From Thauera aromatica K172 (GTDB taxonomy: Bacteria > Pseudomonadota > Gammaproteobacteria > Burkholderiales > Rhodocyclaceae), in the NCBI RefSeq assembly GCF_003030465.1, contig NZ_CP028339.1, forward strand, positions 1,488,001-1,552,000: a stretch of 64,000 nt of DNA, in the 5' to 3' direction. The translations under genes and the position numbers were made by a program. The notes beneath the pieces are model-generated. The model was not told where the DNA came from and made no database searches. It worked only from the letters and a program-made list of their open reading frames with translations. Below are positions 18,164-46,850 of this stretch, piece by piece. The first letter of the stretch is position 1. The number at the start of each line of letters is the position of its first letter.

Positions 18164-18177
18164 TTGATCCAAATCAA
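18164..18177. promoter_or_regulatory. FNR/ANR box, ompW-proximal
   Basis: TTGATCCAAATCAA is a perfect match to TTGAT-N4-ATCAA. Its centre lies about 75 nt upstream of the ompW ATG, a plausible place for a class II activator site near position -41.5 of a promoter. Confidence 0.88.
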
Positions 18178-21967: not shown

Positions 21968-22471
21968 TCAAGCGGCTTGGTTTTTCTTACGGATGGTTTT
22001 TTGACGGGCCATCGAGCCTGTCGGCAGTGCCCCCAGCAGTGCGCCGATCGATACAACAACGATCCCAAGCGCGGTCGTGATCCCCAGCAATTCGTCGAGG
22101 ATCAGTACGCCGCCGATGGCAGAGAAGGCGGGTACCAGCACGAGTATCATCGACGCCTGACAGGCGCCAATCTTCTGGTTTGCGTAGCTGTACATGCCCG
22201 CTGCTAGCAATGCGGCGATGATGCCCTGGTACATCGCCTGCAGGCCGATCTCACCCCAGCTGGCGTGTGCGATGTTACTTGGCAGCCAAAATAGATAGAC
22301 TGGCAGATAGATCACCAGCGAAAAGCTCGCGATGCCGATAATGTCCATCTGGGGGCGGATCTGCCAGTGCCGCATTAGGAGACCGAAGATCGCCCAGCAC
22401 AGAGCTGCAACGAGGAAGAGGCCATCGCCGATCCATACGCCTTCGGCCGAAGGGGCGAACAGGCTTTGAGA
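21968..22471 (-). pseudogene. 5'-truncated EamA/DMT transporter copy
   Basis: The translated segment from SQSLFAPSAEGVWIGDGLF to the stop at 21968 is closely similar, residue by residue, to the C-terminal half of the intact EamA protein at 28986-29999; both share MYSYANQKIGACQASM, for example. The N-terminal five membrane segments are missing, and the frame continues upstream into unrelated sequence (to 22549), so the gene is not functional as a transporter. It faces the MocR regulator at 22821, so the pair was probably a divergent mocR-eamA unit. Codon use is more AT-rich than in the second copy, which suggests an independent origin rather than a recent local duplication. Confidence 0.85.
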
Positions 22472-22820
22472 GCCAGGGTCTCCGCACTCGGCTTGCATAA
22501 TGCACCCATGGATTTCATCAATAAAATCAAGGCGCCGAGCCGGTATCACCCGAAAGTTTCTCTTAGCCGAAGCCTGCGAATTTTGGTTCCTTCGCCGCTC
22601 GCTGCGATTCGGATCCGGCGAGGAGTGTATTTAAGATCAGTTGCTTAGAGAGCGCTGGCGCGATGATGTTCGAGGGCGGAGGCCAGTTTTTCGAGGCGCC
22701 CGAATGTTGTCGTTCTACGAGCTCGGGACAGCGGAAACACGTTTGATATAGCGCCTAGAGTGATCGTCAGGAATGATCTGTGCCAAAGCCGCGGGACTAT
22801 TTGATTGTTACGATGCGAAC

Positions 22821-24233
22821 ATGAGCCTCTATCAAGAATTCGCGGATCGAACCGCAAAGCTGATCGCAGATGGTGTGCTGCGTCCGGGAGAACGACTTCC
22901 GTCTGTTCGGCAAGCATGTAAAGTGAATGCAATCAGTCCAGTTACGGTTACCAAAGCCTACCATCTGCTGGAGAGCCGTGGCTTGATCGAAGCGAGGCCG
23001 AAGTCCGGGTACTTCGTTCGTGCGCGCCTCGGTCACAAGTTGCCTGAACCAGAGATGACCCATCCGGTTGGAGGTTCGACAGCCCTTCAGGTAAGCGATT
23101 TCATCTTCCAGATCCTTGATAGTGCGCGAGATCCTTCTATTGTTCCACTCGGTTCGAGTTTTCCTGATTCGCGACTATTCCCACTCGAAAGGCTTGGACG
23201 ATTCTTGGCAGCGGCTGCACGAAGGCTCGATCCGTTGGCGACGGTCACGGACCTTCCTCCGGGCAATGAGGAGTTACGAAGGCAGCTAGCTCTACGTTAC
23301 TTGGCGCATGGCGCTTCGGTCTCGCCGCACGAGGTCATCGTGACCTCCGGTGCGATGGAAGGACTCAGCCTTTGCCTCCAAGCCTTGACAAAGCCTGGAG
23401 ATCTGATCGCTATCGAGTCGCCAACCTTCTATGCAGGGCTGCAGGCAAGTGAACGACTCGGTCTCAAGGTGATCGAGATTCCAAGCCATCCGCGCGAAGG
23501 CGTGAGTATCAGCGCGCTTGCAGACGCGCTGCGGCATCATTCGATCAAGGCTTGCCTTTTCATGCTGAATTTTGCGAATCCGACGGGAAGCCGCGTTTCG
23601 GATGAGAATAAGAGGGCGCTCGTCGAGTTGCTTCACAAGCACCAAGTTCCGTTGATTGAAGATGACGTCTACGGTGAACTGTACTTCGGGTGTGATACGC
23701 CAGTTTCCAGCAAGGCAGTGGATGAGGACGGCCTAGTCCTCCATGTCTCCTCATTTTCGAAGTGCCTCGCGCCGGGTTACCGCGTCGGCTGGGTCGCAGC
23801 AGGCCGTTTCGCGAAAGAGGTTCAACGGCAGAAATATTCGACTAGCCTTGCCACAGCGGTGCCCATGCAGATTGCGCTGGCGGCATACCTGAAGCATGGT
23901 GGCTTCGACAATCACCTGCGAAAGTTGCGCCGACAGTTGATGACGCAGGAGGCCCGAATCATTGCGGGGGTTGAAGAGCATTTTCCGGTAGGTACACGAT
24001 TGGCGCGACCGGACGGCGGGTATTTCCTATGGCTCGAATTGCCCAGTCAGGTCGATACTCTACGCTTATACGAAGAGGCCCTGGTGAGTGGTATCAGTAT
24101 CGCACCGGGGCCGATCTTCTCCGCAAAGCGCGAGTTTTCCAACTATCTGCGGCTCAATTTTGGCCACCCCGCAACCGAGCGCCAGGGGGATGCACTGGCT
24201 ACGCTAGGCCGTCTGATTAAGCGCCAGCTATAG
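22821..24233 (+). CDS. MocR-type transcriptional regulator (GntR HTH + aminotransferase domain)
   Basis: This 470-aa regulator has an N-terminal GntR winged helix (MSLYQEFADRTAKLIADG, then GERLPSVRQACKVNAISPVTVTKAYHLLE, residues 1-75). A fold-type I aminotransferase domain follows, with NFANPTGS, EDDVYGELYF and the PLP-lysine motif VSSFSKCLAPGYRVGW. MocR proteins sense PLP or amino acid derivatives and usually control a divergent or adjacent gene; here that neighbour is the broken eamA at 21968-22471. Base composition is clearly more AT-rich than in flanking genes, a sign of transfer. Its last 6 nt overlap norF tail-to-tail. A second, truncated MocR lies at 46272-46850. ATG 22821 matches the family N-terminus, though the ribosome binding site is poor. 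Confidence 0.92.
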   Translation: MSLYQEFADRTAKLIADGVLRPGERLPSVRQACKVNAISPVTVTKAYHLLESRGLIEARPKSGYFVRARLGHKLPEPEMTHPVGGSTALQVSDFIFQILDSARDPSIVPLGSSFPDSRLFPLERLGRFLAAAARRLDPLATVTDLPPGNEELRRQLALRYLAHGASVSPHEVIVTSGAMEGLSLCLQALTKPGDLIAIESPTFYAGLQASERLGLKVIEIPSHPREGVSISALADALRHHSIKACLFMLNFANPTGSRVSDENKRALVELLHKHQVPLIEDDVYGELYFGCDTPVSSKAVDEDGLVLHVSSFSKCLAPGYRVGWVAAGRFAKEVQRQKYSTSLATAVPMQIALAAYLKHGGFDNHLRKLRRQLMTQEARIIAGVEEHFPVGTRLARPDGGYFLWLELPSQVDTLRLYEEALVSGISIAPGPIFSAKREFSNYLRLNFGHPATERQGDALATLGRLIKRQL

Positions 24234-24536
24234 GCTCGCAAAGCGAGCGAAGCTGTCGCCAAAGAAGGTCGTCAGCACGATCGCGATCGGCGCGAAGGCG
24301 ATGAAGATGCGCAGCACGTTGCGGATGAAGGGGTGGGCCAGCTCCGCCTCGATGAAATGGCGCGCAACCAGGCTGCCCTTGAACCAGATGATCGCGGCCA
24401 CGACCAGTTGCACCGCGTGATCGCCGCCGAAGCCTGCGCCGAGTTGCGGACTCACCAGGGTCAGCCCGACCAGGAGCAGCCAGGTCAGGACCAGCGGACG
24501 AAGCGACGTGGAGGGTTTGCGTTCGATGTTTTCCAT
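24228..24536 (-). CDS. norF: NorF-like cytochrome oxidase subunit IV family protein
   Basis: This 102-aa protein (MENIERKPSTSLRPLVLTWL) has three predicted membrane helices and ends in IVLTTFFGDSFARFASL. It follows norE after 2 nt. NorF is an accessory protein for activity of nitric oxide reductase NorCB. The identity rests on size, topology and the adjacent norE. norCB is not in the window. The stop codon region overlaps the convergent MocR gene by 6 nt. Confidence 0.82.
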   Translation of the reverse strand: MENIERKPSTSLRPLVLTWLLLVGLTLVSPQLGAGFGGDHAVQLVVAAIIWFKGSLVARHFIEAELAHPFIRNVLRIFIAFAPIAIVLTTFFGDSFARFASL

Positions 24537-24538
24537 GA

Positions 24539-25144
24539 TCAGGCCAGGACGTAGAAGAAGGGAAAGATGACGAGCCAGATGATGTCGGTCGCGTGCCAAT
24601 AGCTTGCGAGCGCTTCCAGGCCGCTGTGCTCTTCGGCGGTATAGATCCCGAACGTGTGGCGTGTCAGGACCCAGAGGATGCCGAGGATGCCCCAGAAGGC
24701 ATGCACCATGTGGGTGAAGGTCAGGTAGTAATAGACGGTGAAGAAGATCCCCGATTCCCCGTCGATGCCGTGGGCGAAGTTCCACTGGATCTCCAGGTAC
24801 TTCGCCACCGGATAGCCCAGCGCCGCGACCAGCCCCGCGATCAGCCACGCCATCGATTGGCGCCTGCGCCCGGCGCGCAGACTGGTGACCGAACATGCGA
24901 TGAAGAAGCTGCTCGTCACCATCAGCAGGGTGATGATCACCCCTGCCGTCTGCGACAGCCGCTCCGCCCCGGCGTGAAAGGCCTCCGGAAAGTGCGCACG
25001 CGCGACGAAGTACACGATGAACAGCAGCATGAATTCGACGAACTCGCAGCAGATCCCGACCCAGATGCCTTTGTTGCCCGGCACACGGCTGGTACCGGGA
25101 GATGCGTCACCTGCCATGGGCAGGCTCATGGTGCTGGCGATCAT
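24539..25144 (-). CDS. norE: NorE-like cytochrome c oxidase subunit III family protein
   Basis: This 201-aa protein has five membrane helices of the subunit III fold. Landmarks are KGIWVGICCEFVEFMLLFIVYF near residue 35, KYLEIQWNFAHGIDG, and FTHMVHAFWGILGILWVL, with a C-terminal SYWHATDIIWLVIFPFFYVLA. NorE assists nitric oxide reductase function. ATG 25142-25144 was chosen because AGGAGGGAAACACC directly precedes it; further upstream Met codons lack such a site. norE is divergent from ccoG across a 199-nt gap. Confidence 0.88.
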   Translation of the reverse strand: MIASTMSLPMAGDASPGTSRVPGNKGIWVGICCEFVEFMLLFIVYFVARAHFPEAFHAGAERLSQTAGVIITLLMVTSSFFIACSVTSLRAGRRRQSMAWLIAGLVAALGYPVAKYLEIQWNFAHGIDGESGIFFTVYYYLTFTHMVHAFWGILGILWVLTRHTFGIYTAEEHSGLEALASYWHATDIIWLVIFPFFYVLA

Positions 25145-25257
25145 GGTGTTTCCCTCCTGATTCGATGTCGTCATTGTGAGCGTCCGAAAACGGGAGGGCA
25201 GATACAGCCGGGCGGATTGTCGTCCGGTACAGCGCGACCGTCGCATTCAATCTGCAC

Positions 25258-25271
25258 CTGATCTAAATCGT
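25258..25271. promoter_or_regulatory. Degenerate FNR/DNR-type site between norE and ccoG
   Basis: CTGATCTAAATCGT matches TTGAT-N4-ATCAA at seven of ten consensus positions. It lies in the divergent promoter region, 114 nt upstream of norE and 73 nt upstream of ccoG. It could serve either direction. Weak evidence on its own; the location in front of norEF is what makes it worth listing. Confidence 0.4.
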
Positions 25272-25343
25272 ACAATCTGAATCTGCCTCCATCACACCCG
25301 TGATGATGTACTTCTGGCCATCTTCAGAGCCGGAGTACGCAAC

Positions 25344-26741
25344 ATGCCCCCCCCCGTCAGCAAGGCGCGCGAAGCCCGGCTGGAGTTTTATCGCAAGAAG
25401 GGAACGATCCACGCCAAGGCGGTGCAGGGGCGCTACAACAGCCTCCGCTGGGCGATGGTGTGGCTCACGCAGATCGTCTTCTATGGCGCGTGCTGGCTTC
25501 CGTGGACAACCGAGACCGGTACGCGGCAGGCGATCCTGTTCGACATCACCCACGAAAGGCTCTACCTCTTCGATCTGGTGCTGTGGCCGCAGGATGCGCT
25601 GCTGCTCGCCTTCGTTCTGATCCTGGCGGCGACCGCGCTGTTCTTCGTCACCGCGCTCGCCGGGCGTCTGTTCTGCGGCTTCGCCTGTCCGCAGACGGTC
25701 TATACGTCGATCTTCACCTGGATCGAGTCCAAGGTCGAAGGCGACCATCTCGCGCGCTTGAAGCTGGACCAGAGTCCGATGTCGGCGCGCAAGCTCGCGA
25801 TCAAATCGGTCAAGCACGGCATCTGGGCGCTGGTGGCGGCGTGGACCGCGATCACCTTCGTCGGCTACTTCACCCCGATCCGCGAGCTGCTGCCGACGAT
25901 CGCCGCCTTCCAGACCGGCCCGTGGGAGGCGTTCTGGCTGCTCTTCTACGCCACCTTCACCTACGTGCAGGCGGGGCTGGCGCGCGAGGCGGTGTGCCAG
26001 CACATGTGCCCCTACTCGCGCTTCCAGGGCGTGATGTCCGACCCGACGACGGCCACCGTCAGCTACGACCGCCAGCGTGGCGAGCCACGCGGTGCCTTGC
26101 GCCAGGCGAAGCAGACGGGTGATTGCATCGACTGCGGCATCTGCGTGCAGGTGTGCCCGACCGGCATCGACATCCGCGACGGGCTGCAATACCAGTGCAT
26201 CAACTGTGGCCTGTGCGTGGACGGCTGCGACGAGGTCATGGACAGGATCGGCGCGCCGCGCGGGCTGATCCGCTTCGTGAGCGAGAACGAACTCGCCGGC
26301 AAGCCCAGGTCGAAGGGCGTTCGCCTGCGGCCACGGGTGCTCTCCTACGTCGGCCTGCTGCTCGTGTTCATGACCCTGACCGGGTGGACGCTGAGCGAAC
26401 GCGTGCTGCTGCGCGTCGAGGTGCTCCGCGATCGCGGCGCCCTGCTGCGCGAAACCCCGGAAGGCCGCATCGCGAATGCCTACACCCTGAAGCTGATCAA
26501 CATGGAAGAGGCGCATCGCCGTTTCCGGATCGGCGTGAGCGGCCTGCCGGGCCTTCGGATCGACGGTCCGACCGAGTTCACCGCCGCGCCCGGCAGCATC
26601 CATACGGTCTCGCTCACGGTGTCGTCCCCGACCGCGGACGGGCTCTCGGGCGCGCAGCCGATCGCGTTCGAGACGGTGGCGCTGCACGACGAGGACATCG
26701 CCGTGCGCGAGAAGAGCACCTTCATCCTGCCCACCCCCTGA
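25344..26741 (+). CDS. ccoG: CcoG/FixG-family ferredoxin-like membrane protein
   Basis: This 465-aa protein has about five membrane helices, two CxxxC motifs at membrane edges (FCGFACPQ, CQHMCPYSRFQG), and two 4Fe-4S clusters (CIDCGICVQVCPTG, CINCGLCVDGC, near residues 265-300). A periplasmic Ig-like C-terminal domain follows (FRIGVSGLPGL...). CcoG reduces Cu(II) to Cu(I) for assembly of cbb3 oxidase. No ccoNOPQ genes are nearby. It is instead the first gene of a run ending at argD, only 17 nt before cysI. It may supply Cu(I) for the copper enzymes of denitrification, or feed electrons to the siroheme reductase downstream; both are inferences. Confidence 0.93.
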   Translation: MPPPVSKAREARLEFYRKKGTIHAKAVQGRYNSLRWAMVWLTQIVFYGACWLPWTTETGTRQAILFDITHERLYLFDLVLWPQDALLLAFVLILAATALFFVTALAGRLFCGFACPQTVYTSIFTWIESKVEGDHLARLKLDQSPMSARKLAIKSVKHGIWALVAAWTAITFVGYFTPIRELLPTIAAFQTGPWEAFWLLFYATFTYVQAGLAREAVCQHMCPYSRFQGVMSDPTTATVSYDRQRGEPRGALRQAKQTGDCIDCGICVQVCPTGIDIRDGLQYQCINCGLCVDGCDEVMDRIGAPRGLIRFVSENELAGKPRSKGVRLRPRVLSYVGLLLVFMTLTGWTLSERVLLRVEVLRDRGALLRETPEGRIANAYTLKLINMEEAHRRFRIGVSGLPGLRIDGPTEFTAAPGSIHTVSLTVSSPTADGLSGAQPIAFETVALHDEDIAVREKSTFILPTP

Positions 26742-26758
26742 GCCCGCCGAGGAACCCC

Positions 26759-28429
26759 ATGTACCGCTACAACGAAACCGACCAACGCCTCGTGGACGAC
26801 CGGGTCCGGCAGTTCCGCGACCAGATGCAGCGCTATCTCGATGGCCGCCTGAGCGAAGACGATTTTCGTCCGCTGCGCCTGCAGAACGGGCTGTACGTGC
26901 AGCGTCATGCGCCCATGCTGCGGGTGGCGATCCCGTACGGCACGATGTCGAGCCGGCAGCTGCGCACCCTGGCCCACATCGCGCGCACCTGGGACCGCGG
27001 CTACGGGCACTTCACGACCCGCAGCAACATCCAGTTCAACTGGGTGCGGCTTGCCGACGTACCCGACATCCTCGCCCTGCTCGCCACCGTACAGATGCAT
27101 GCGATCCAGACCTCCGGCAACTGCATCCGCAACATCACGACCGATCAGTTCGCCGGGGTTGCCCAAGACGAAGTCCTGGATCCGCGGCCCTACTGCGAGA
27201 TCGTCCGTCAGTGGTCGGCGCTGGCGCCCGAGTTCCTGTTCCTGCCGCGCAAGTTCAAGATCGCCATCGTCGGCGGTGCGGAAGACCGCGCCGCGGTGCG
27301 CTTCCATGACATCGGCGCGCGGGCGCGGCGCAACGAACAAGGCGAGCCGGGCTTCGAAGTCTTCGTCGGCGGCGGCCTCGGGCGCACGCCGATGGTGGGG
27401 CACTGCATCAAGTCCTTCCTGCCGCGCGCCGAGTTGCTGAACTACTTCGAGGCCATCCTGCGGGTCTATAACCGCCATGGACGGCGCGACAACAAGTACA
27501 AGGCGCGCATCAAGATCCTGGTCAAGGACCTGACGCTGGGAGGCTTCGCCCGCGAGGTGGACGCGGAGTGGAGCCATGCACGCGGTGGCGGCAACCTGCT
27601 CGCGGAGGCGGCCTGCGAACGGATGGAAGCCTACTTCGCGCCACCCGAGTATGCGGATGTCCGGGTGGACGACCCGGTCTTCGTTGTCGCGCGCGCAGCG
27701 AGCCGCCCGTTCGCGCGCTGGGTCGAGCGCAACGTAGCTGCGCACCGCCATCCGGGTTACGGCATCGTGACCCTGTCGCTGAAGAAGACCGGCGTGCCGC
27801 CCGGCGACGCGACGGCCGACCAGATGGACCTGATCGCCGATCTGGCCGACCGCTTCAGCGGCGGCGAGATCCGGGTCAGCCACGAGCAGAACCTGATCCT
27901 GCCCAACGTCGCCCGGCGCGACCTGCATGCCCTGTGGGAGCTCGCCCGTGCGTGCGGGCTCGCGACGCCGAACATCGGGCTGCTGACCGACGTCGTCTGT
28001 TGTCCGGGCGGTGATTTCTGTTCGCTGGCGAATGCGAAATCGTTGCCGGTGGCGGCAGCGATCCAGCAGCGCTTCGACGATCTGGATTACCTGTTCGACC
28101 TGGGGCCGGTGGAGTTGAACATCTCCGGATGCGTCAATGCCTGCGGCCATCACCACATCGGCCACATCGGCATTCTCGGCGTCGATAAGAACAACGAGGA
28201 GTGGTACCAGGTGACCCTCGGCGGCAGTGAAGGCAATCGTGCCCGGCTCGGCCGGGTCATCGGCCCCTCGTTTGCTGCGAGCGAGATTCCGGAGGTCATC
28301 GCCAGACTCCTGCACACCTATGTCGGCGAGCGGCACGACGGCGAAGGCTTCATCGACACCGTCGAGCGCATCGGACTCGATCCCTTCAAGGCCGCCGTCT
28401 ATGGAGAACGTCATGAAGCCGCTCATTAG
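26759..28429 (+). CDS. cysI: Siroheme nitrite/sulfite reductase (CysI type)
   Basis: This 556-aa hemoprotein reduces sulfite to sulfide or nitrite to ammonia by six electrons. Two ferredoxin-like/siroheme repeats are seen. The first has GYGHFTTRSNIQFNWVRLAD near residue 85 with anion-binding basic residues, and the second has RVSHEQNLILPNV near 375. The 4Fe-4S/siroheme cysteines occur as CCPGGDFCSLANAKSLP and NISGCVNACGHHHIGH (C-x5-C and C-x3-C). DUF934 follows immediately, the normal partner of CysI in betaproteobacteria. No cysJ flavoprotein or cysH/cysD is present, so the electron donor and the true substrate are open. The ATG has GAGGAA 7 nt upstream. Confidence 0.92.
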   Translation: MYRYNETDQRLVDDRVRQFRDQMQRYLDGRLSEDDFRPLRLQNGLYVQRHAPMLRVAIPYGTMSSRQLRTLAHIARTWDRGYGHFTTRSNIQFNWVRLADVPDILALLATVQMHAIQTSGNCIRNITTDQFAGVAQDEVLDPRPYCEIVRQWSALAPEFLFLPRKFKIAIVGGAEDRAAVRFHDIGARARRNEQGEPGFEVFVGGGLGRTPMVGHCIKSFLPRAELLNYFEAILRVYNRHGRRDNKYKARIKILVKDLTLGGFAREVDAEWSHARGGGNLLAEAACERMEAYFAPPEYADVRVDDPVFVVARAASRPFARWVERNVAAHRHPGYGIVTLSLKKTGVPPGDATADQMDLIADLADRFSGGEIRVSHEQNLILPNVARRDLHALWELARACGLATPNIGLLTDVVCCPGGDFCSLANAKSLPVAAAIQQRFDDLDYLFDLGPVELNISGCVNACGHHHIGHIGILGVDKNNEEWYQVTLGGSEGNRARLGRVIGPSFAASEIPEVIARLLHTYVGERHDGEGFIDTVERIGLDPFKAAVYGERHEAAH

Positions 28430-28964
28430 GGATGGTCGCATCGTCGATGACGACTGGGTCGTGCTGGACGGGGACGACGGACAAGCGCCCGATCTGGCGC
28501 CGTCGGGGGCCAGGCAGATCGTGCCGATCGCCCTCTACCGGGCGCACGCCGATGCGCTGCGTCACCTGGGACACCGCATCGGTATCGCACTCGGCCCGGA
28601 AGATGATCCCGAGGTAGTGCTGCCCTACATGGCGCACGTCAGCCTCATTGCGATCCGCTTCCCGAACTTCACCGATGGCCGCGGCTACTCGACCGCGCGC
28701 CTGCTCAGAAGCCGCTTCGGCTATGCGGGTGAACTGCGCGCCATCGGCGATGTGCTGCGCGACCAGTTGTATTTCTTGCACCGCTGCGGGTTCGATGCGT
28801 TCGCGCTGCGGCCGGATCAGGACCCCGACGATGCGCTGGGCGCGTTCGGCGACTACACCTGGCGCCCGGTTTTCGGCGCCGCGGCGGCGGCGCAGCCCGG
28901 ATCACCGCGCGAGGACGGCGGGGAACCGCCGCGCGCCGCGTCCGTGCCGGACGCGCTGCCATGA
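28413..28964 (+). CDS. DUF934 protein, CysI-associated
   Basis: This 183-aa cytoplasmic protein (MKPLIRDGRIVDDDWVVLDG) carries the family stretch VSLIAIRFPNFTDGRGYSTARLLRSRFGYAGELRAIGDVLRDQLYFLHRCGFDAF. DUF934 genes follow cysI in many betaproteobacteria and are thought to assist sulfite reduction, without a proven mechanism. ATG 28413 is preceded by GGAGAACG and lies inside the end of cysI (17-nt overlap), indicating coupling. The C-terminal 30 residues are Pro/Ala/Gly-rich. Confidence 0.88.
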   Translation: MKPLIRDGRIVDDDWVVLDGDDGQAPDLAPSGARQIVPIALYRAHADALRHLGHRIGIALGPEDDPEVVLPYMAHVSLIAIRFPNFTDGRGYSTARLLRSRFGYAGELRAIGDVLRDQLYFLHRCGFDAFALRPDQDPDDALGAFGDYTWRPVFGAAAAAQPGSPREDGGEPPRAASVPDALP

Positions 28965-28985
28965 CGCCGCACGCCGGAGACTGAA

Positions 28986-29999
28986 ATGACCGAGCACGCC
29001 ACCGGACTGCCGGACACCGCCAAGGGGCTGCTGGCGGCACTGGTCGTCGTCATCTGCTGGTCGGGGTTCAACATCGTGTCCCGCTTCGGCAGCACGGCGA
29101 GCTTCACGCCCTTCGACCTCGCCGCGCTGCGCTATGGCGTATCGGGCGCGCTGACCCTGCCCTTCTTCCTGAAATACGTCCCGCTGCGCGAATGGCCGCG
29201 CCATGCGGCGCTCGCCCTGTTCGGCGGGCTCGGCTACGGTCTGTTCGTCTATTCCGGCTTCGCCTTCGCCCCGGCCGCGCATGCGGGCGTGTTCGTCAAT
29301 GGCGGCATTCCGTTCTGGACGGTGATCATGGTCGCCGCGCTCGCGGGCTTCCACATCGCGCGCCAGACCGTGCTCGCGCTGGTCCTGTCGAGCGCCGGCC
29401 TGGTCCTGATCGGCTTCCAGAGCCTGTTCACCGCCGCCGCGCCGGGGACCTGGATCGGGGATGCGCTCTTCCTCGCCGCAGCCCTGTGCTGGGCGCTGTT
29501 CGGTCTGCTGATGCGCCATTGGCGGATCCGGCCCCAGCACGGCATCCTCGGCATCGCCAGCTTCTCGCTGGTGCTGTACATGCCGATCTATCTGCTGTGG
29601 CTGCCGGGCGACATCGCGCAGGCGGGCTGGGGGGAGATCGGACTGCAGGCGGTCTACCAGGGCATCGTCGCCGCGTTGCTCGCCGCCGGCATGTACAGCT
29701 ACGCCAACCAGAAGATCGGCGCCTGCCAGGCGTCGATGATGCTCGCCCTCGTGCCCGCCTTCACCGCCGCCGGCGGCGTCCTGATCCTCGGCGAGACACT
29801 GGGACTCACGACGATGCTCGGCATCGTGGTCGTGTCGCTGGGCGCCGTGCTCGGCGCGCTGCCGTCCGGCACCCTCGCACGCCTGCGTCCCTTCCGCGGC
29901 GGCCGGGCACGCGAGGGCGCCCCCTCCTCCGCCGGCACGGCGCCGTGCCTGCCCGACGACCGGGCGGCGGGCGCCGACACACAGTCGTGCGGCAAATGA
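28986..29999 (+). CDS. EamA/DMT-family transporter, probable amino-acid or metabolite exporter
   Basis: This 337-aa inner-membrane protein has ten predicted helices in two EamA repeats. The first includes GLLAALVVVICWSGFNIVSRFG and AALRYGVSGALTLPFF, and the second includes TWIGDALFLAAALCWALFGLL and MYSYANQKIGACQASM. A soluble, basic and Pro-rich tail of about 40 residues follows. EamA proteins often export amino acids or related compounds. The position between cysI-DUF934 and three aminotransferase genes suggests the product of that pathway as substrate. A truncated relative lies at 21968-22471. Confidence 0.9.
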   Translation: MTEHATGLPDTAKGLLAALVVVICWSGFNIVSRFGSTASFTPFDLAALRYGVSGALTLPFFLKYVPLREWPRHAALALFGGLGYGLFVYSGFAFAPAAHAGVFVNGGIPFWTVIMVAALAGFHIARQTVLALVLSSAGLVLIGFQSLFTAAAPGTWIGDALFLAAALCWALFGLLMRHWRIRPQHGILGIASFSLVLYMPIYLLWLPGDIAQAGWGEIGLQAVYQGIVAALLAAGMYSYANQKIGACQASMMLALVPAFTAAGGVLILGETLGLTTMLGIVVVSLGAVLGALPSGTLARLRPFRGGRAREGAPSSAGTAPCLPDDRAAGADTQSCGK

Positions 30000-30031
30000 C
30001 GACGATGATTTCTTCGACCGAGGAGCACGAC

Positions 30032-31123
30032 ATGGGCTCGAACGAGCGTGCATTCAACTTCAGCGCCGGCCCGGGGGCCTTGCCCGAGGAAGTGTTGCGC
30101 CAGGCGCGCGACGAACTCCTGAACCGGGGCGGCTGCGGGGTATCGGTCGCCGAGATGAGCCACCGCGGCGAACACTTCATCGCGATCGCGGAACAGGCCG
30201 AGCGCGACCTGCGGGACCTGCTGGCGATCCCCGCCGACCATGCAGTCCTCTTCCTGCAGGGCGGCGGCTCGCAGCAGTTCGCCCAGGTGCCGCTCAACCT
30301 GCTGCCGGAAGGCGGGTGCGCGGACTACATCGACACCGGCTTCTGGTCGGTTCGGGCCATCGAGGAGGCGCGCCGGTATGGGCGGATCAACATCGCCGCA
30401 AGTTCGCACGATGACGGCTATCGCCATATTCCGCGCCAGGCCCGCTGGCGGCTGTCGGCATCGTCAGCGTATGTGCATTACACCGCCAACGAGACCATCG
30501 ACGGTCTGGAGTTCGACTGGATTCCCGAGGTGGGCGACACGCCGCTGGTCGCCGACTTCTCGGCGAACATCCTGTCGCGCCCGCTCGACGTCTCGCGTTT
30601 CGCCCTGATCTACGCCGGCGCGCAGAAGAATATCGGCCCCAGCGGGCTGGCCGTCGTCATCGTGCGCAAGGATCTGCTGGGGCGCGCCCGTCGATGCTGT
30701 CCGACGATGCTGGACTACCGGATCGCGGCGGGGCACGGCTCGATGTACAACACGCCGCCGACCTTCGCCTGGTACCTGGCGGGCCTGATTTTCCGCTGGC
30801 TGAAGGCGCAAGGCGGACTGACGGCGATCGCCGAGATCAATCGGCGCAAGCAGAAGCGCCTGTACGACACGATCGATGCCAGCGGGCTGTACGTGAATCG
30901 GGTCGAAGCGAAGGATCGCTCGTGGATGAACGTCCCCTTCCGCCTCGTCGACGACCGTCTGGACGAGGCCTTCCTCGCCGGCGCCGAGGTGCGCGGTCTG
31001 CTCTACCTGAAAGGCCACCGCGCGACCGGCGGCATGCGCGCTTCGCTCTACAACGCCGTCAGCGAGGCGGCGGTCGATGCGCTGGTCGCCTACATGACCG
31101 AATTCGAACGGGAACGGGGCTGA
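30032..31123 (+). CDS. serC: Phosphoserine aminotransferase
   Basis: This 363-aa fold-type I PLP enzyme interconverts 3-phosphohydroxypyruvate and phosphoserine. The sequence begins MGSNERAFNFSAGPGALPEEVL; further motifs are GVSVAEMSHRGEHF, LFLQGGGSQQFAQVPLNL, ADFSANILSRPLD, and the PLP-lysine in IYAGAQKNIGPSG. ATG 30032 follows GAGGAGC at good spacing; an upstream ATG (29996) overlaps the eamA stop and would add 12 residues. Position inside a cysI/exporter operon rather than with serA or pheA suggests a dedicated role. It could be a second, specialised serC. Confidence 0.93.
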   Translation: MGSNERAFNFSAGPGALPEEVLRQARDELLNRGGCGVSVAEMSHRGEHFIAIAEQAERDLRDLLAIPADHAVLFLQGGGSQQFAQVPLNLLPEGGCADYIDTGFWSVRAIEEARRYGRINIAASSHDDGYRHIPRQARWRLSASSAYVHYTANETIDGLEFDWIPEVGDTPLVADFSANILSRPLDVSRFALIYAGAQKNIGPSGLAVVIVRKDLLGRARRCCPTMLDYRIAAGHGSMYNTPPTFAWYLAGLIFRWLKAQGGLTAIAEINRRKQKRLYDTIDASGLYVNRVEAKDRSWMNVPFRLVDDRLDEAFLAGAEVRGLLYLKGHRATGGMRASLYNAVSEAAVDALVAYMTEFERERG

Positions 31124-31157
31124 TCGCATGCGCCCCACGGACAATGGAGGACAACCG

Positions 31158-32285
31158 ATGAGCGATCACATTCATACGCTGGCCCTGCCGCGGATACGGG
31201 CGCTGTCGCCTTACGTGCCCGGCAAGCCGGTCGACGAACTCGCGCGCGAGCTCGGGCTCGACCCGGCCGACATCGTCAAGCTGGCCAGCAACGAGAACCC
31301 GATGGGGCCGAATCCGCGGGTCCTCGAGGCGATCCGGAGCGCCGCCCGGCACCTGACCCGCTACCCGGACGGCAACGGCTTCGCGCTCAAGGCCAGACTT
31401 GGCGAGCGCTTCGGCATCGATGCGGCGCAGATCACCCTGGGCAACGGGTCCAACGACATCATCGTGATGGTGGCGGACGCCTTCCTCGCCGAGGGGCGCA
31501 ACGCTGTGTTCAGCCAGTACGGCTTCGCCGCCTATCCGCTGGCGACCCAGGCGTCGGGCGCCGAATGCCGCGAGGTCGCCGCCAGGGCGTGGGGCAACGA
31601 TCTGGAAGGCATGCTGGCGGCCATCGACGGCGATACCCGGGTGTTGTTCATCGCGAATCCGAACAACCCGACCGGCACCTGGGTCGACCGCCCGAACCTG
31701 GAGCGATTTCTCGCCTGCGTGCCGCGCCACGTGCTGGTCGTCCTCGACGAGGCCTATCTCGAATATGCGGACGATGCCGACCTGCCCGACGGCCTCGACC
31801 ATGTCGCCCGCCACCCCAACCTGCTGGTGTCGCGCAGCCTGTGCAAGGCCTACGGCTTGGCGGGGTTGCGCGTCGGATACGCGGTGTCGTCCCCCGCGGT
31901 GGCCGACCTGCTCAACCGCGTCCGGCAACCCTTCAACGTCAACAGCCTGGCGCTCGCGGGCGCCTGCGCGGCGCTGGACGACGATGCCTATCTGGAGGCC
32001 GGCCGCCGGGTGAATCGACTCGGTCTGGCCCAGTTGCAGGCGGGGCTGGACGAACTCGGGCTGTGCTGGATCCCGACGCGGGCGAATTTCGTCACCGTCG
32101 ACCTGGGGATGCCGGCCCAGCCGGTCTACCAGTCCCTGCTGCGCCAGGGCGTGATCGTCCGCCCCCTGGACGGCTACGGGCTGCCCTGCCACCTGCGGAT
32201 CTCGGTGGGGCTCGAACACGAGAACCGCCGCTTCCTCGACGCCCTCGCGACCGCCATCAAGGAGGCTGCCCATGTCGCACACTGA
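31158..32285 (+). CDS. hisC: Histidinol-phosphate aminotransferase family (HisC2-like)
   Basis: This 375-aa class I/II aminotransferase has LSPYVPGKPVDELARELG near the start, VKLASNENPMGPNPRVLEAI, FIANPNNPTGTW, LDEAYLEYAD and the PLP-lysine SRSLCKAYGLAGLRVGY. The HisC2 group accepts histidinol phosphate and aromatic amino acids. No other his gene is near, so the actual substrate here may differ. GGAGGACAACCG precedes the ATG. The gene follows serC by 34 nt and overlaps the next gene by 14 nt. Confidence 0.92.
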   Translation: MSDHIHTLALPRIRALSPYVPGKPVDELARELGLDPADIVKLASNENPMGPNPRVLEAIRSAARHLTRYPDGNGFALKARLGERFGIDAAQITLGNGSNDIIVMVADAFLAEGRNAVFSQYGFAAYPLATQASGAECREVAARAWGNDLEGMLAAIDGDTRVLFIANPNNPTGTWVDRPNLERFLACVPRHVLVVLDEAYLEYADDADLPDGLDHVARHPNLLVSRSLCKAYGLAGLRVGYAVSSPAVADLLNRVRQPFNVNSLALAGACAALDDDAYLEAGRRVNRLGLAQLQAGLDELGLCWIPTRANFVTVDLGMPAQPVYQSLLRQGVIVRPLDGYGLPCHLRISVGLEHENRRFLDALATAIKEAAHVAH

Positions 32286-33537
32286 ATCCGTCGGGCGTAC
32301 CGACTTCGACCGCCTGATGATCCCCTGCTACGCGCCGGACGGTTTCATCCCGGTACGCGGTGAGGGCTCGCGCGTTTGGGATCAGCACGGACGCGAGCTG
32401 ATCGACTTCGCCGGCGGCATCGCCGTCAATGCGCTCGGACACGCGCATCCGTCCCTGGTGCGGGCCCTGGTCGAGCAGGCCGGCAAGCTGTGGCACGTCT
32501 CGAACCTGTATACCAACGAGCCGGCCTTGCGCCTGGCATCGAAACTGGTCGCGGCGACGTTCGCCGAGCGTGTGTTCTTCGCCAACTCCGGCGCCGAGGC
32601 GAACGAGGCCGCGTTCAAGCTGGCGCGGCGCCATGGCCTCGAGACGGCGGGCGCGCACAAGCACGAGATCGTCGCCGCCCTCGACAGCTTTCACGGCCGC
32701 ACGCTGTTTACCGTCAGCGTCGCCGGCCAGCCGAAATACTCGGCTGGCTTCGGCCCGCCGATCGGCGGCATCCGCCACGTCCGCTTCAACGACATCGGCG
32801 CGCTGGAGGCGGCCGTTTCCGCCAATACCTGCGCGATCGTGCTCGAGCCGGTGCTGGGCGAGAGCGGCGTGCTGCCGGCCGAGCGCGCCTATCTCGAGCG
32901 GGCGCGCGAGCTGTGCGACGAGCATGGCGCGCTGCTGGTGTTCGACGAGGTCCAGACGGGCATGGGCCGCGTCGGTGAATTGTTCGCCTATCAGCGCTAC
33001 GGCGTGACGCCGGACGTCCTGACCAGTGCCAAGGCGCTCGGTGGCGGCTTTCCCATTGCGGCGATGCTGACCCGCGCCGATCTGGCCGGCCATCTGGGGG
33101 TCGGCAGCCATGGCAGCACCTACGGCGGCAACCCACTCGCCTGTGCGGTCGCCGAGGCGGTGCTGGACATCATCGCCACCCCGGCCGTACTCGCCGGCGT
33201 CAGGGAGCGCCATGAGCGGTTCAGCACCGAGCTGCGGCGCATCGGTGCGCAGACCGGCCTGTTCGAGCAGGTGCGCGGGCTGGGCCTGCTGCTCGGCGGC
33301 GTCCTCGGCGAGGCCTGGAAGGGCCGCGCACGCGACGTCATGCGGACATGCGAAGAGGAAGGGTTGATGGTGCTCCAGGCCGGACCCGATGTGATCCGGC
33401 TGGCCCCCAGCCTGGTCATCGATGCTGCGGACATCGACGAAGGCATGCGCAGACTCGAGCGTGCCGCGCGCCGGCTGAGGGACGAAGCGGGCCGGGCCTG
33501 CGATCCCGACACCGTACTGATCACGGGAGTGGCCTGA
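32272..33537 (+). CDS. argD: Acetylornithine/succinylornithine-type class III aminotransferase
   Basis: This 421-aa class III PLP enzyme resembles ArgD/AstC. Motifs are YAPDGFIPVRGEGSRVWDQHG, GHAHPSLVRALVEQAGKLWHVSNLY, FFANSGAEANEAAFKLARRHG, LVFDEVQTGMGRVG and the PLP-lysine in TSAKALGGGFPIAAML. It ends the ccoG-argD run; the sequence beyond is IS debris, so the operon may once have been longer. Members of this family also act on other omega-amino compounds, so the assigned acetylornithine role is by similarity only. Confidence 0.92.
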   Translation: MSHTESVGRTDFDRLMIPCYAPDGFIPVRGEGSRVWDQHGRELIDFAGGIAVNALGHAHPSLVRALVEQAGKLWHVSNLYTNEPALRLASKLVAATFAERVFFANSGAEANEAAFKLARRHGLETAGAHKHEIVAALDSFHGRTLFTVSVAGQPKYSAGFGPPIGGIRHVRFNDIGALEAAVSANTCAIVLEPVLGESGVLPAERAYLERARELCDEHGALLVFDEVQTGMGRVGELFAYQRYGVTPDVLTSAKALGGGFPIAAMLTRADLAGHLGVGSHGSTYGGNPLACAVAEAVLDIIATPAVLAGVRERHERFSTELRRIGAQTGLFEQVRGLGLLLGGVLGEAWKGRARDVMRTCEEEGLMVLQAGPDVIRLAPSLVIDAADIDEGMRRLERAARRLRDEAGRACDPDTVLITGVA

Positions 33538-33540
33538 CAC

Positions 33541-33680
33541 GGACGGCCTCGATGCGGTGCTGCTGGGGCGGATCCAGTCCGAATTGATGCCGGCATGGTC
33601 TCGCAGGCCAACCTCCAGGTGCTCGCCAAGGGCGGCGGCAAGTCCCTGAAGGCCATGCCGATGCGCCGTGGCGACTCGAT
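33541..33680 (+). pseudogene. Fragment of an IS1634/IS4-like transposase
   Basis: In the frame of 33571-33681 the translation reads DPVRIDAGMVSQANLQVLAK then GGGK and PMRRGD, resembling the segment following the second catalytic Asp of IS1634-like DDE transposases (DxGMVSxxNxxxL). Sequence before and after gives no continuation, and it stops against the IS66 remnant. It is an insertion scar behind argD. Confidence 0.5.
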
Positions 33681-33973
33681 CACCGAAGCAGTCCGAGCAC
33701 CAGCGCGTCGAACTGCACCCGGGTGAGTACGACACCGCCTTGGCCCCCGGCCCATTGACACCGGCCCTGGTTCAAGCGCCGGCATGCCGGCCACACCCCG
33801 AAGCTGTCGTGGACCAGCACCTTCAAGCGCGTGCCGCGCCGATTACTGAAGAGGTAGGCGTGGTGGGGCTGTGCTTGGCCGAACACGCGCATCACCTGCG
33901 CGAGCAGCGTGTCCATGCCCGCGCGCATGTCCAAGGGCGCCACCGACAGCCACAGCGCCTCGATGCGGATCAT
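33680..33973 (-). CDS. tnpB: IS66 accessory protein TnpB, C-terminally truncated
   Basis: The 97-aa protein begins MIRIEALWLSVAPLDMRAGM and continues with LLAQVMRVFGQAQPHHAYLFSN, RRGTRLKVLVHDSFGVW, the signature of IS66 Orf2 proteins. It ends at FDALVLGLLR, about ten residues short of the family's usual end, at the junction with other IS debris. Start overlaps tnpA stop by 4 nt, the normal arrangement. Confidence 0.85.
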   Translation of the reverse strand: MIRIEALWLSVAPLDMRAGMDTLLAQVMRVFGQAQPHHAYLFSNRRGTRLKVLVHDSFGVWPACRRLNQGRCQWAGGQGGVVLTRVQFDALVLGLLR

Positions 33974-34350
33974 GCGAGCCACTCGCGCAGCCATGCACCA
34001 CAGGCGTCGGCGGCCTGGAGCGGCCATTCGAGCTTGACGCGGGCGTTGCCGCGTTGCGCTGCGACGCGGATCACCGACGCCTCGACTCCGGGGGCGACCT
34101 GTACCGCGACAAAGCCCGGCTCGGCCAACGCATTGAGTCCTACGCCGACCGGCGTGCGCCGGCTCGGCGGCACGATGCCGCGCTCGCGCATCCAGCGATG
34201 CACCTGGTTGGCGTTCAGGCCGTTGGCCAGGGCCACGCCAGCCACCGAGACACCCGGCTCACGATAGGCCGAGACCACCGACCGCTTGAATGCTTCGCTA
34301 TGCGTGCGCCGACTCCGGCGCGGGATAACCACATCCATCGTGTCCACCAT
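33970..34350 (-). CDS. tnpA: IS66 accessory protein TnpA
   Basis: This 126-aa protein has an N-terminal helix-turn-helix (RRTHSEAFKRSVVSAYREPG, then VSVAGVALANGLNANQVHRWMRERG), typical of IS66 Orf1 / IS3-like HTH. A basic C-terminal half follows. A start at Met 5 (34338) is also possible. Complete as far as can be seen, but its partner transposase TnpC is absent. Confidence 0.85.
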   Translation of the reverse strand: MVDTMDVVIPRRSRRTHSEAFKRSVVSAYREPGVSVAGVALANGLNANQVHRWMRERGIVPPSRRTPVGVGLNALAEPGFVAVQVAPGVEASVIRVAAQRGNARVKLEWPLQAADACGAWLREWLA

Positions 34351-34390
34351 CGAAAACTAGTGGACACCATCTTCGATGGGCTACGGAACA

Positions 34391-34409
34391 CCGCTCAGCG
34401 CCCGCTTAC
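34391..34409 (-). repeat. Terminal inverted repeat of the IS66 remnant
   Basis: GTAAGCGGGCGCTGAGCGG, read on the minus strand, marks the outer right end of the element, about 40 nt upstream of tnpA. A pair of short inverted repeats GTGTCCAC / GTGGACAC (34340-34347, 34360-34367) lies between it and tnpA. From 34410 to narK1 (228 nt) I see no gene. Confidence 0.7.
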
Positions 34410-34637
34410 GGATCTATGCGGCATAGCTCGTATCTGTGCTTATAGAAAATCGACTTCGCTGCATCTGTTGTGTGGTCGATGCGGATGGTCCAATCCTCAT
34501 CCATTGAAGCGAAGCCAGAAGAGGGATTTGCGACTCCGCAGATGACGGAACGCGATCCATGTGGGGTATGGGCTACAAGCTGTCTCCTTCTGCGTGCATC
34601 ACATATTTCGAGTGCATGACGACCGGAATCGATCAGG

Positions 34638-35900
34638 ATGGCTACTCGCAAGTTTCAGCAGATGTCCGTGCTCATCATGAGCACCACCGCATTCACCGTC
34701 TGTTTTGCCGTGTGGATGCTGTTCGCGGTGATCGGCATCCCGATCAAGGAAGTCCTCGCCCTCAACGAGACCCAGTTCGGCCTGCTGGCGGCCACGCCGG
34801 TCCTGACCGGCTCGCTGATCCGTCTGCCGCTCGGCATGCTCACCGACAAGTTCGGCGGCCGCATCGTCTTCTTCGTGCTGATGCTCTGCACCGTGCTGCC
34901 GATCTGGCTGATCGGTCACGCCACCGAATACTGGCAGTTCCTCGTCGCGGGCTTGTTCGTCGGCTTCGCGGGCGGCTCCTTCTCAGTGGGTATCGCCTAC
35001 TGTGCGCGCTGGTTCGAGCGCCAAAACCAGGGCTTCGCGATGGGGGTGTTCGGTGCCGGCAACTCGGGCGCCGCGGTCACCAAGTTCGTCGCGCCCACGC
35101 TGGTGGTCATGTTCGGATGGCAGATGGTGCCGCAGGTCTATGCGGTGGCAATGCTGATCACCGCGGTCGCGTTCTGGTTCTTCACCTACGACGACCCCGA
35201 GCACCGGGTGCACTCCTCGGTGACCTTCCGCGACCAGCTGCGCGTACTCAAGGATCCGCGCGTGTGGAAGTACTGCCAGTACTACTCGATCGTGTTCGGC
35301 GGCTACGTCGGCCTGTCGCTGTGGCTCACCAAGTACTACGTCAACGAGTTCGGCATGGGCATCCAGGCGGCGGCGCTGCTCGCTGCCTGCTTCTCCCTGC
35401 CCGGCGGCGTGCTGCGCGCGGTGGGCGGCTGGCTGTCCGACCGCTACGGCGCGCACAAGGTCACCTGGTGGGTGATGTGGGCGTCGTGGATCTGCCTGTT
35501 CCTGCTCTCCTATCCGAACACCGACTTCACCGTGCAGACGGTCGAGGGGCCGCGCACCTTCAGCATCCACCTCAACGTGTGGGTGTTCACGATTCTGCTC
35601 TTCATCGTCGGCATCGCCTTCGCCTTCGGCAAGGCCTCGGTGTTCAAGTACATCTCCAACGAGTTCCCCAAGGAGATCGGCGCGGTCTCCGGCATCGTCG
35701 GCCTGGTGGGCGGCATGGGCGGCTTCCTGCTGCCGATCATGTTCGGCGCCCTGGTCGACCTCACCGGCGTGCGCTCGAGCGCCTTCATGCTGCTCTACGG
35801 CGTGACCTGGGTTTCCCTGATCTGGATGTACCTGACGGAAGTCCGTCGTGTCGACATGTTCGACGGTCACGACACCGCGGTCGACTCGTCCAAGGCCTGA
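34638..35900 (+). CDS. narK1: Nitrate/proton symporter NarK1
   Basis: This 420-aa MFS transporter has 12 helices. The nitrate signature of the first half is seen as LVAGLFVGFAGGSFSVGIAYCARWF, followed by GFAMGVFGAGNSGAAVTK, and the second as GKASVFKYISNEFPKEIGAVSGIVGLVGGMGG. The loop motif is PLGMLTDKFGGR. NarK1-type proteins import nitrate with protons. It is the first gene of the narK1K2GHJI-ppiC run; the IS66 remnant ends only 228 nt upstream, so its native promoter may have been affected. Confidence 0.94.
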   Translation: MATRKFQQMSVLIMSTTAFTVCFAVWMLFAVIGIPIKEVLALNETQFGLLAATPVLTGSLIRLPLGMLTDKFGGRIVFFVLMLCTVLPIWLIGHATEYWQFLVAGLFVGFAGGSFSVGIAYCARWFERQNQGFAMGVFGAGNSGAAVTKFVAPTLVVMFGWQMVPQVYAVAMLITAVAFWFFTYDDPEHRVHSSVTFRDQLRVLKDPRVWKYCQYYSIVFGGYVGLSLWLTKYYVNEFGMGIQAAALLAACFSLPGGVLRAVGGWLSDRYGAHKVTWWVMWASWICLFLLSYPNTDFTVQTVEGPRTFSIHLNVWVFTILLFIVGIAFAFGKASVFKYISNEFPKEIGAVSGIVGLVGGMGGFLLPIMFGALVDLTGVRSSAFMLLYGVTWVSLIWMYLTEVRRVDMFDGHDTAVDSSKA

Positions 35901-46160: not shown

Positions 46161-46229
46161 GGAGTGCAGGGCAAGCTCGCGTTCAAGCAGAAGGGCGGAG
46201 CGGCGTTCAAGCGGCTGTTCGCCATCACG

Positions 46230-46269
46230 GAGTGTGATCATCGCAACATCAAATTCGGTGATCACACTC
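46230..46269. repeat. 11-bp perfect inverted repeat before MocR fragment
   Basis: GAGTGTGATCA (46230-46240) and TGATCACACTC (46259-46269) flank an 18-nt spacer and end where the MocR-like homology starts. It may mark the recombination junction or be part of a lost insertion element. Confidence 0.6.
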
Positions 46270-46271
46270 AG

Positions 46272-46850
46272 CCGCTGATCGAAGACGACGTCTACGCCGA
46301 ACTGTACTTCGGCCGCGAGGCGCCGCTGTGCACCAAGGCGGAAGACCCGGCGGGTCTGGTGATGCACGTCTCGTCGTTCTCGAAATGCCTGGCGCCCGGC
46401 TACCGCCTTGGCTGGGTCGCTGCCGGGCGCTACGCGAGCCGGGTCCAGCGCCTGAAGCTGTCGACCAGTCTGGCGACCACGGTGCCGGTGCAGATCGCCG
46501 TGGCCGAGTATCTGAAGCAAGGCGCCTACGACAAACACCTGCGCCAGCTGCGGCGCAGGCTGGCCGCGCAGGAAGCGCAATTCGTGGATGCCGTTGAGCG
46601 CCATTTCCCCGCCGGCACGCGGCTGGCGCGACCGCAGGGCGGCTATTTCCTGTGGGTTGAATTACCAGCGCGGATCGATACCCTGGCGCTGCATCGGCGC
46701 GCCCTGGACAAGGGTATCAGCATTGCTCCGGGGCCGATTTTTTCGGCCAAACGCGAGTTCGATCATCACCTTCGGCTCAACTTCGGACACCCCGGAACCG
46801 ATCGTCAGCGTGCGGCGATCACGCTCCTGGGGCAGATGCTCGCCATGTAG
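46272..46850 (+). pseudogene. C-terminal fragment of a second MocR-type regulator
   Basis: The frame encodes PLIEDDVYAELYFGREAP, VSSFSKCLAPGYRLGWVAAG (with the PLP lysine) and the C-terminal GISIAPGPIFSAKREFDHHLRLNFGHPG. It is closely similar to the last 190 residues of the MocR at 22821-24233 but is GC-rich like the chromosome. The DNA-binding domain and half of the aminotransferase domain are missing; upstream codons in the same frame (from 46164) are unrelated. This may be the original regulator of the intact eamA at 28986 before rearrangement. Confidence 0.85.

Follow-up and report, generated by a model that had tools for sequence, protein, structure and literature searches.

What would a bacterium gain by joining a membrane ferredoxin, a siroheme reductase, an exporter, and three aminotransferases in a single operon? 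The question is raised by seven adjacent genes of Thauera aromatica K172, ccoG-cysI-DUF934-eamA-serC-hisC-argD, in a genome of 3.7 Mb. The window is the whole 64,000-nucleotide stretch analyzed here (C1:1488001-1552000; contig NZ_CP028339.1). SerC, HisC, and ArgD belong to three unrelated pathways. An initial annotation of this DNA had offered two readings, namely nitrite or sulfite reduction coupled to the making and export of an amino acid, or the breakdown of a nitrogen or sulfur compound with detoxification of sulfite. Neither is retained; the regulator, the operator, and the genes present indicate a response to cyanide. We consider it quite probable that these genes represent an MpaR-type, cyanide-responsive tolerance operon that has gained three pseudomonad-like aminotransferases.

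A seven-gene unit behind a MocR regulator

The seven open reading frames (ORFs) occupy positions 25344-33537 of the plus strand, all start with ATG, and contain zero internal stops (Table 1). The gaps between them, from ccoG to argD in the 5'->3' direction, are 17, -17, 21, 32, 34, and -14 nt. The coordinates, ORFs, and all six gaps given in the initial annotation were reproduced, and domain scans agree with its families: CcoG, a siroheme reductase, DUF934, a drug/metabolite transporter (DMT) family exporter, and three aminotransferases. Its view of the block as a single operon-like unit also holds, with short or overlapping gaps and neither an internal promoter nor an intergenic terminator in a simple scan of positions 25100-34700. 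That scan returned no sigma-70-like promoter, which is weak evidence given a mean of 1.0 for shuffled sequences, and 7 terminator-like sites, each located within a gene.

The original inventory was correct for the seven genes but overlooked the MocR regulator just upstream, the truncated copies of eamA and mocR, and the cyanide response. The locus presents a regulator gene, an operator with the layout of MpaR promoters, the gene set itself, paralogues of its enzymes, and the single promoter region that was found. The possibility that the enzymes are housekeeping copies without paralogues was rejected. CcoG, CysI, SerC, HisC, and ArgD, the five enzymes searched, each have another homologue in the genome, in agreement with the earlier view that these are dedicated paralogues.

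The regulator and operator resemble those of a cyanide-induced system

The Pseudomonas aeruginosa genes PA4129-PA4134 form a cyanide-induced cluster that, with cioAB, confers cyanide resistance (PMC6664145). The cluster is governed by MpaR in response to cyanide; residue K314 of this regulator is required and Y284 is largely required, and activation through a cyanohydrin of pyridoxal phosphate (PLP) has been proposed as a model (PMC10790758). The MocR protein of the window is 55% identical to P. aeruginosa MpaR (97% coverage). Residues F114, F203, Y284, and K314 of MpaR are all conserved in the window MocR and in 18 aligned relatives.

Expression of ccoN4 depends on MpaR and cyanide and needs the sequence ATCTGAT, which is also present ahead of the two remaining units (PMC10790758). 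A P. aeruginosa replicon (L148) with annotated genes for DUF934, a nitrite/sulfite reductase, ccoG, mpaR, ccoN, and a cbb3 subunit together is equated here with PA4129-PA4134 on the basis of its gene order and of the name MpaR. Its three promoters, which served as a positive control, each carry ATCTGAT...CTG-N3-CTGTTT, with the first two CTG triplets spaced by N21, N21, and N22. Upstream of ccoG in the window stands CTG-N22-CTG-N3-CTG; the predicted operator at this site, ATCTG-N20-ATCTGAATCTG, has 0 matches in 100 shuffles.

Relatives were collected by scanning 84,980 species genomes with the EamA protein, a search that reaches close relatives only and that produced 53 loci. The same operator precedes ccoG in 17 of the 17 named loci that include the ccoG 5' end, and is located 84 to 128 bp ahead of the start of the ccoG match. 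A looser form of the pattern occurs 111 times in 845 kb when both strands are counted and the true sites are included, a background that predicts about 0.2 matches in 17 stretches of 150 bp, where 17 of 17 were seen. These loci are related rather than independent, but the letters around the fixed ones vary between the Azoarcus-type, Dechloromonas, Azospira, and P. aeruginosa versions. Within the T. aromatica genome, the 41-base operator pattern has a single match within 3 mismatches, at the ccoG promoter, and its reversed control has 0. Because there is one genomic site, the MocR regulon in this strain would be the ccoG operon, if MocR acts only via such sites. The CTG-N22-CTG-N3-CTG pattern also provides a searchable operator for cyanide regulons.

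The exporter gene can carry a similar site by itself. Of 34 loci that lack a ccoG 5' end, 9 have the looser pattern no more than 400 bp ahead of eamA, where about 1 would be expected from the same background. The remaining eamA loci number 36 in all; two with a cut ccoG in front (L050 and L093) were excluded and a third with a cut ccoG (L064) was kept. The result suggests that eamA itself is a regulon member in relatives from Zoogloea, Azoarcus, and Denitromonas, and that the exporter alone can be MocR-controlled. The nine loci with an operator-like site before eamA and no adjacent ccoG are L066, L067, L069, L070, L084, L087, L088, L090, and L092.

An older core with three genes probably appended

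The order mocR-ccoG-(cysI-DUF934)-eamA recurs in Thauera, Parazoarcus, Azoarcus, Zoogloea, and Dechloromonas. Among the 53 loci, CcoG is found in 20 (17 with the 5' end; cut in L050, L064, and L093), CysI in 13, and MocR with at least 62% identity in 15. The mocR gene is divergent in L077 and L083, and Azospira (L086) has ccoG-cysI-DUF934-eamA with no mocR within the stretch covered. By comparison, serC-hisC-argD follows eamA in 0 of the 53 relatives; at least 1.2 kb after eamA is covered in 46 of them, including 15 of 17 core loci (not L077 and L079). Looked for singly in these loci, SerC has no match, HisC has one partial match of 35% (L055), and ArgD has a partial match of 33% (L071) and a match of 39% (L083). 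Conservation of gene order, to which the initial annotation had tied its proposal, therefore fails for the seven genes and holds for the core. The 53-locus mapping makes the seven-gene order private to this strain within the searched set and the core old. Although the block is one seven-gene stretch, what is conserved as a unit is mocR together with the first four of these genes.

Both enzymes at the front of the operon have a counterpart elsewhere in the genome. The other CcoG is 51% identical to CcoG2, which falls in the cluster-type clade, and the other CysI-DUF934 pair shows 63% and 42% identity to the pair in the window. Relative to the genes around mpaR in L148, identities are 62% for CysI, 45% for CcoG, and 58% for DUF934 (over 47% of its length). 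CysI2 passes no CysI or NirA equivalog cut-off (109.6 bits against a TIGR02041 cut-off of 756.55). A K-x-K motif is the same in 16 of 16 aligned rows and does not separate nitrite from sulfite reductases.

The three aminotransferases probably have a different history. SerC2 is 56% identical to the other, housekeeping-type SerC of the genome and is sister to the pseudomonad housekeeping SerC clade with 100/99 support, on a long branch distant from its own genus (47 sequences chosen of 97). HisC2 is 69% identical to P. aeruginosa HisC and 57% to the nearest other HisC in the genome, and ArgD2 is 70% identical to P. aeruginosa AruC and 43% to its best other homologue in the genome. The origin of SerC is judged from this tree, and that of HisC and ArgD from identity. 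The serC-hisC-argD genes were probably gained from the pseudomonad line and appended behind the older core.

The source of these genes was sought in several genome sets. No SerC above 58% identity to SerC2 is present in 28 same-genus genomes, some of which are incomplete drafts. In a 369-genome sample of the class, 17 genomes including G000 pass 1e-147 for SerC, and hisC lies directly behind serC in 0 of the 16 others. Plasmid-borne SerC was considered and rejected, as the two best matches are P. aeruginosa chromosome-like gyrA-serC-pheA-hisC blocks.

One relative carries aminotransferases of its own. In Dechloromonas hortensis (L083), an aromatic aminotransferase gene lies between DUF934 and eamA, and a gene for an acetylornithine aminotransferase of another subfamily follows eamA. 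These enzymes are 28% (partial) identical to the HisC and 38% identical to the ArgD of the window, and by these comparisons the aminotransferases of the two loci are of different origin.

Relation to known cyanide systems

The window and PA4129-PA4134 have in common a MocR regulator, ccoG, a NirA/CysI-type reductase, DUF934, and the operator layout ATCTG-N-CTG-N3-CTG. They differ in arrangement and content. In the window, a single operator stands before ccoG to argD, which are all oriented alike, and norEF separates mocR from ccoG. The window adds an EamA exporter and three aminotransferases, whereas ccoN4 and ccoQ4 are found in PA4129-PA4134 only. The reductase of the P. aeruginosa cluster, NirA (PA4130), is unaffected by 200 µM KCN, whereas P. 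aeruginosa CysI loses all activity at 100 µM (PMC12688703).

A second relevant system is the cio cluster (BN5_1899-1912) of strain CECT5344 (P. pseudoalcaligenes/oleovorans), which comprises mocR, cysI3, cioC, cioA, cioB, serC, hisC, argD, and further genes (PMC8567248, PMC10138600). Its proteins respond to cyanide, with cyanide/ammonium ratios of 17.4 for CysI3 (printed as CysL3), 53.6 for SerC3, 33.3 for HisC3, and 399 for ArgD3. In the same comparison MocR, CioC, and CioA were detected only with cyanide, and CioC was detected also with arsenite (PMC10138600). By published gene names, this cluster resembles the window in having mocR, a cysI, and the trio serC-hisC-argD in identical order. 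The window operon has ccoG and eamA and lacks cioAB, dapA, metF, cysM, maeB, and nit4. A passage in PMC11049912 states that the CECT5344 cluster has no homologous cluster in bacterial databases, and we found no CECT5344-type cluster among the matches listed for 398 Pseudomonadaceae genomes. The window is a second carrier of serC-hisC-argD beside mocR and cysI, in another lineage and with an operator tied to the MpaR cyanide response.

The first genes of the operon also have housekeeping relatives. The window cysI-DUF934 pair matches the pair of assimilatory sulfite reductase in family and pairing, and it is a paralogue behind a MocR-type operator. CcoG2 belongs to the same TIGR02745 family as the CcoG/RdxA proteins of cbb3-oxidase assembly operons, and it is a second copy with no ccoNOPQ beside it.

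Proposed function of the operon

Given these resemblances, it seems reasonable to propose that the PLP bound to MocR reacts with cyanide, as in the model published for MpaR, and that MocR then switches the ccoG promoter. Activation and repression are both conceivable. In CECT5344, the cio cluster is said to be constitutive in a MocR mutant (unpublished data quoted in PMC8567248); for this reason MocR would repress in that strain, whereas MpaR activates. The operon would then supply stand-ins for cyanide-blocked functions. Perhaps the second CcoG serves the assembly of cbb3 oxidase. A search of the whole genome for the bd-type oxidase family PF01654 gave 0 matches, whereas a control search detected this family in 10 of 14 genomes; because no bd-type oxidase was found, help from CcoG2 to a cbb3-type oxidase would be the likely respiratory route. 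The siroheme reductase might maintain nitrite or sulfite reduction under cyanide, as its relative NirA is cyanide-tolerant. SerC2, HisC2, and ArgD2 may replace amino-acid-biosynthetic aminotransferases whose PLP cofactor is a likely cyanide target, and EamA might export an amino acid, a cyano compound, or a cyanide-derived adduct.

A more general logic of cyanide-proofing can be put forward tentatively, in which the same chemistry would underlie both sensing and damage. Cyanide would attack PLP, a PLP-containing regulator would read this attack, and the operon would issue replacement PLP aminotransferases (serC, hisC, and argD here and in CECT5344; an aromatic enzyme and another ArgD in Dechloromonas), together with a replacement siroheme reductase, a replacement oxidase-assembly factor, and an exporter for the amino or cyano compound that results. 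Different lineages would have recruited non-orthologous enzymes for the same cyanide-sensitive steps. The locus sharpens the question of why cyanide-tolerance operons carry amino-acid aminotransferases. It would also extend the MpaR-type response to denitrifying Rhodocyclales, and it adds EamA as a candidate member. Among the titles listed in searches of open-access literature, none dealt with this operon in Rhodocyclales.

Evidence against a cyanide operon and alternative explanations

Several observations weigh against a cyanide-responsive operon. Cyanide induction of this operon is a prediction from its relatives. The match between the aminotransferases of CECT5344 and those of the window is by name and order only. 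Regarding the regulator, Y284 and K314 alone are non-specific, as one unrelated MocR (the second MocR of L083) has both; this control is a single sequence and is gapped at both F positions. Moreover, loci of Burkholderia and Paraburkholderia (L178, L179, and L180) encode a MocR of about 50% identity and cysI-DUF934 without a convincing operator before the genes. In the mocR-cysI loci of Burkholderia, Paraburkholderia, and Acinetobacter soli, the looser pattern matches solely within the cysI match. The Burkholderia and Paraburkholderia regulators may use another site.

The enzymes are also imperfect matches. CysI2 is not cleanly nearer to NirA than to housekeeping CysI. An unrooted tree joins NirA to CysI1 of this genome, not CysI2, although among the clade-fixed positions, 31 are common to NirA only versus 17 to CysI1 only. 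The sequence 'QTSGNC' is common to CysI2 and the L148 reductase beside mpaR, and CysI1 reads 'QTSGND'. This candidate active-site signature of cyanide tolerance was dropped, as it also occurs in cysI-DUF934 genes of A. baumannii and S. meliloti that have no MocR next to them. No oxidase subunit (ccoN4, cioAB) is encoded among the seven ORFs, and EamA has no counterpart in PA4129-PA4134. In Thauera THA1 (L100), whose gene order (mocR-norFE-ccoG-cysI-DUF934) is otherwise the closest, only fragments of eamA are left (L100:8533-8912), with a pirin gene about 0.9 kb beyond. The exporter is therefore dispensable there. Finally, only two of the 18 core loci (the window and L083) showed aminotransferases, with Pfam run on chosen ORFs of the others, and hence they are optional in the core.

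An alternative that preserves the cyanide-type core is that serC-hisC-argD landed here by chance as a passenger, in an insertion with the IS66 remnant at its edge, and is functionally unlinked to the genes ahead of it. This would agree with the restriction of the trio to this strain among the mapped loci, with the IS66 remnant 143 bp downstream, and with the mocR and eamA remnants, which show that the locus has been rearranged. However, the same order of three genes occurs in the CECT5344 cio cluster, the L083 operon encodes an aromatic aminotransferase and an ArgD of its own, and each ORF of the window trio is intact and separated from the next by a short gap or an overlap. We therefore regard a chance passenger as unlikely.

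Still less likely is a denitrification or nitrosative-stress operon, in which the MocR core would sense nitrite or nitric oxide, cysI2 would detoxify nitrite to ammonium, and CcoG2 and NorEF would aid respiration, with cyanide being incidental. The initial annotation was right about the denitrification neighborhood. The norEF genes are divergent from ccoG, and narK-type genes, narG, narH, narI, and a nos-type gene are nearby. In addition, norEF is found beside ccoG in L100 and L086, and NirA reduces nitrite, its mutant growing poorly with nitrite at low oxygen (PMC12688703). Yet that mutant phenotype is cyanide-dependent according to the same article, the operator and regulator match a cyanide-induced system, norEF is present in just these 2 of the 53 loci, and the scanned FNR patterns have no match near ccoG.

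The dedicated pathway of nitrite or sulfite reduction with amino acid synthesis and export that was first proposed draws on the presence of a reductase, three aminotransferases, and an exporter in one operon-like unit, but it is very improbable given the unrelated pathways of SerC, HisC, and ArgD, the lack of the trio in other core loci, and the occurrence of the same trio in the cyanide-induced CECT5344 cluster, as published, beside the unrelated DapA, MetF, CysM, MaeB, and Nit4.

Surrounding features and other loci

Remnants of both eamA and mocR flank the region that includes the proposed cyanide operon (Table 1). The second mocR piece shares 90% identity with the MocR of L077, so another version of the cluster was once present here, and two versions seem to have met at this locus. 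The IS66 element looks truncated, since argD occupies the position expected for TnpC. Past this remnant are two narK-type major facilitator superfamily genes, then narG, narH, narI, and a nos-type gene.

Table 1. Positions in the window of the proposed operon and its neighboring features.
Feature	Position	Strand	Details
REARRANGEMENT: C-terminal remnant, second eamA	21971..22549	-	75% identity to eamA residues 143-304
mocR: MocR/GntR-type regulator with PLP-binding aminotransferase-like domain, MpaR-like	22773..24233	+	Pfam GntR and Aminotran_1_2
norF	24228-24533	-	No Pfam match; named from the initial annotation and position
norE	24542-25246	-	Matches COX3; norEF divergent from ccoG
Predicted MocR operator, ATCTG-N20-ATCTGAATCTG	25250..25285	+	58 bp before ccoG ATG
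ccoG2: second CcoG/RdxA-type membrane ferredoxin	25344..26741	+	465 aa; TIGR02745, 460.6 bits (cut-off 316.7)
cysI2: siroheme/4Fe-4S nitrite or sulfite reductase	26759..28429	+	556 aa; NIR/SIR family
DUF934 partner of cysI2	28413..28964	+	183 aa; PF06073
eamA: DMT-family exporter, core member of cluster	28986..29999	+	337 aa; PF00892
serC2: phosphoserine aminotransferase, pseudomonad-like	30032..31123	+	363 aa; PRK05355, 515 bits
hisC2: histidinol-phosphate/aromatic-type aminotransferase	31158..32285	+	375 aa; TIGR01141, 347 bits
argD2: AstC/ArgD-family acetylornithine aminotransferase	32272..33537	+	421 aa; PRK05093, 661.6 bits
IS66 remnant, 143 bp 3' of argD2	33680..34350	-	TnpB 33680-34027, TnpA-like 33970-34350; Pfam TnpB_IS66 and HTH_Tnp_1
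REARRANGEMENT: C-terminal remnant, second mocR	46164..46850	+	68% to window MocR, 90% to L077 MocR

Farther upstream, the two matches to the scanned FNR patterns, at 18164 and 18197, are FNR-box-like palindromes (TTGAT-N4-ATCAA) located ahead of an OmpW gene (17424-18095, minus strand).

Second copies of SerC also occur in pseudomonads. At least 11 of the 398 Pseudomonadaceae genomes have two SerC matches at E <= 1e-100, in a screen that often scored 5 candidates per genome. In those 11 genomes and G664, the second SerC copies are 44-53% identical, and 6 of the 12 lie beside a different MocR. In the six genomes concerned (L165-L170), the second SerC is 50-53% identical to that of the window and the adjacent MocR-like regulator 25-26% identical to the window MocR, which makes this a separate pairing.

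Two further loci carry related genes. On a replicon of Halomonas sp. PA16-9 (L150:7684-13440), four copies of an operator-like pattern surround ccoG and mocR; a PLP enzyme of Cys/Met metabolism is encoded on the minus strand beyond ccoG, and it is tied to ccoG-mocR by position only. A mobilizable plasmid of A. soli (L186:8795-15653), on which the operator pattern is absent, encodes a MocR-like regulator and a cytochrome bd-type oxidase pair, with a hypothetical gene and a nitrite/sulfite reductase gene divergent from them. This gene set looks like another cyanide-type set.

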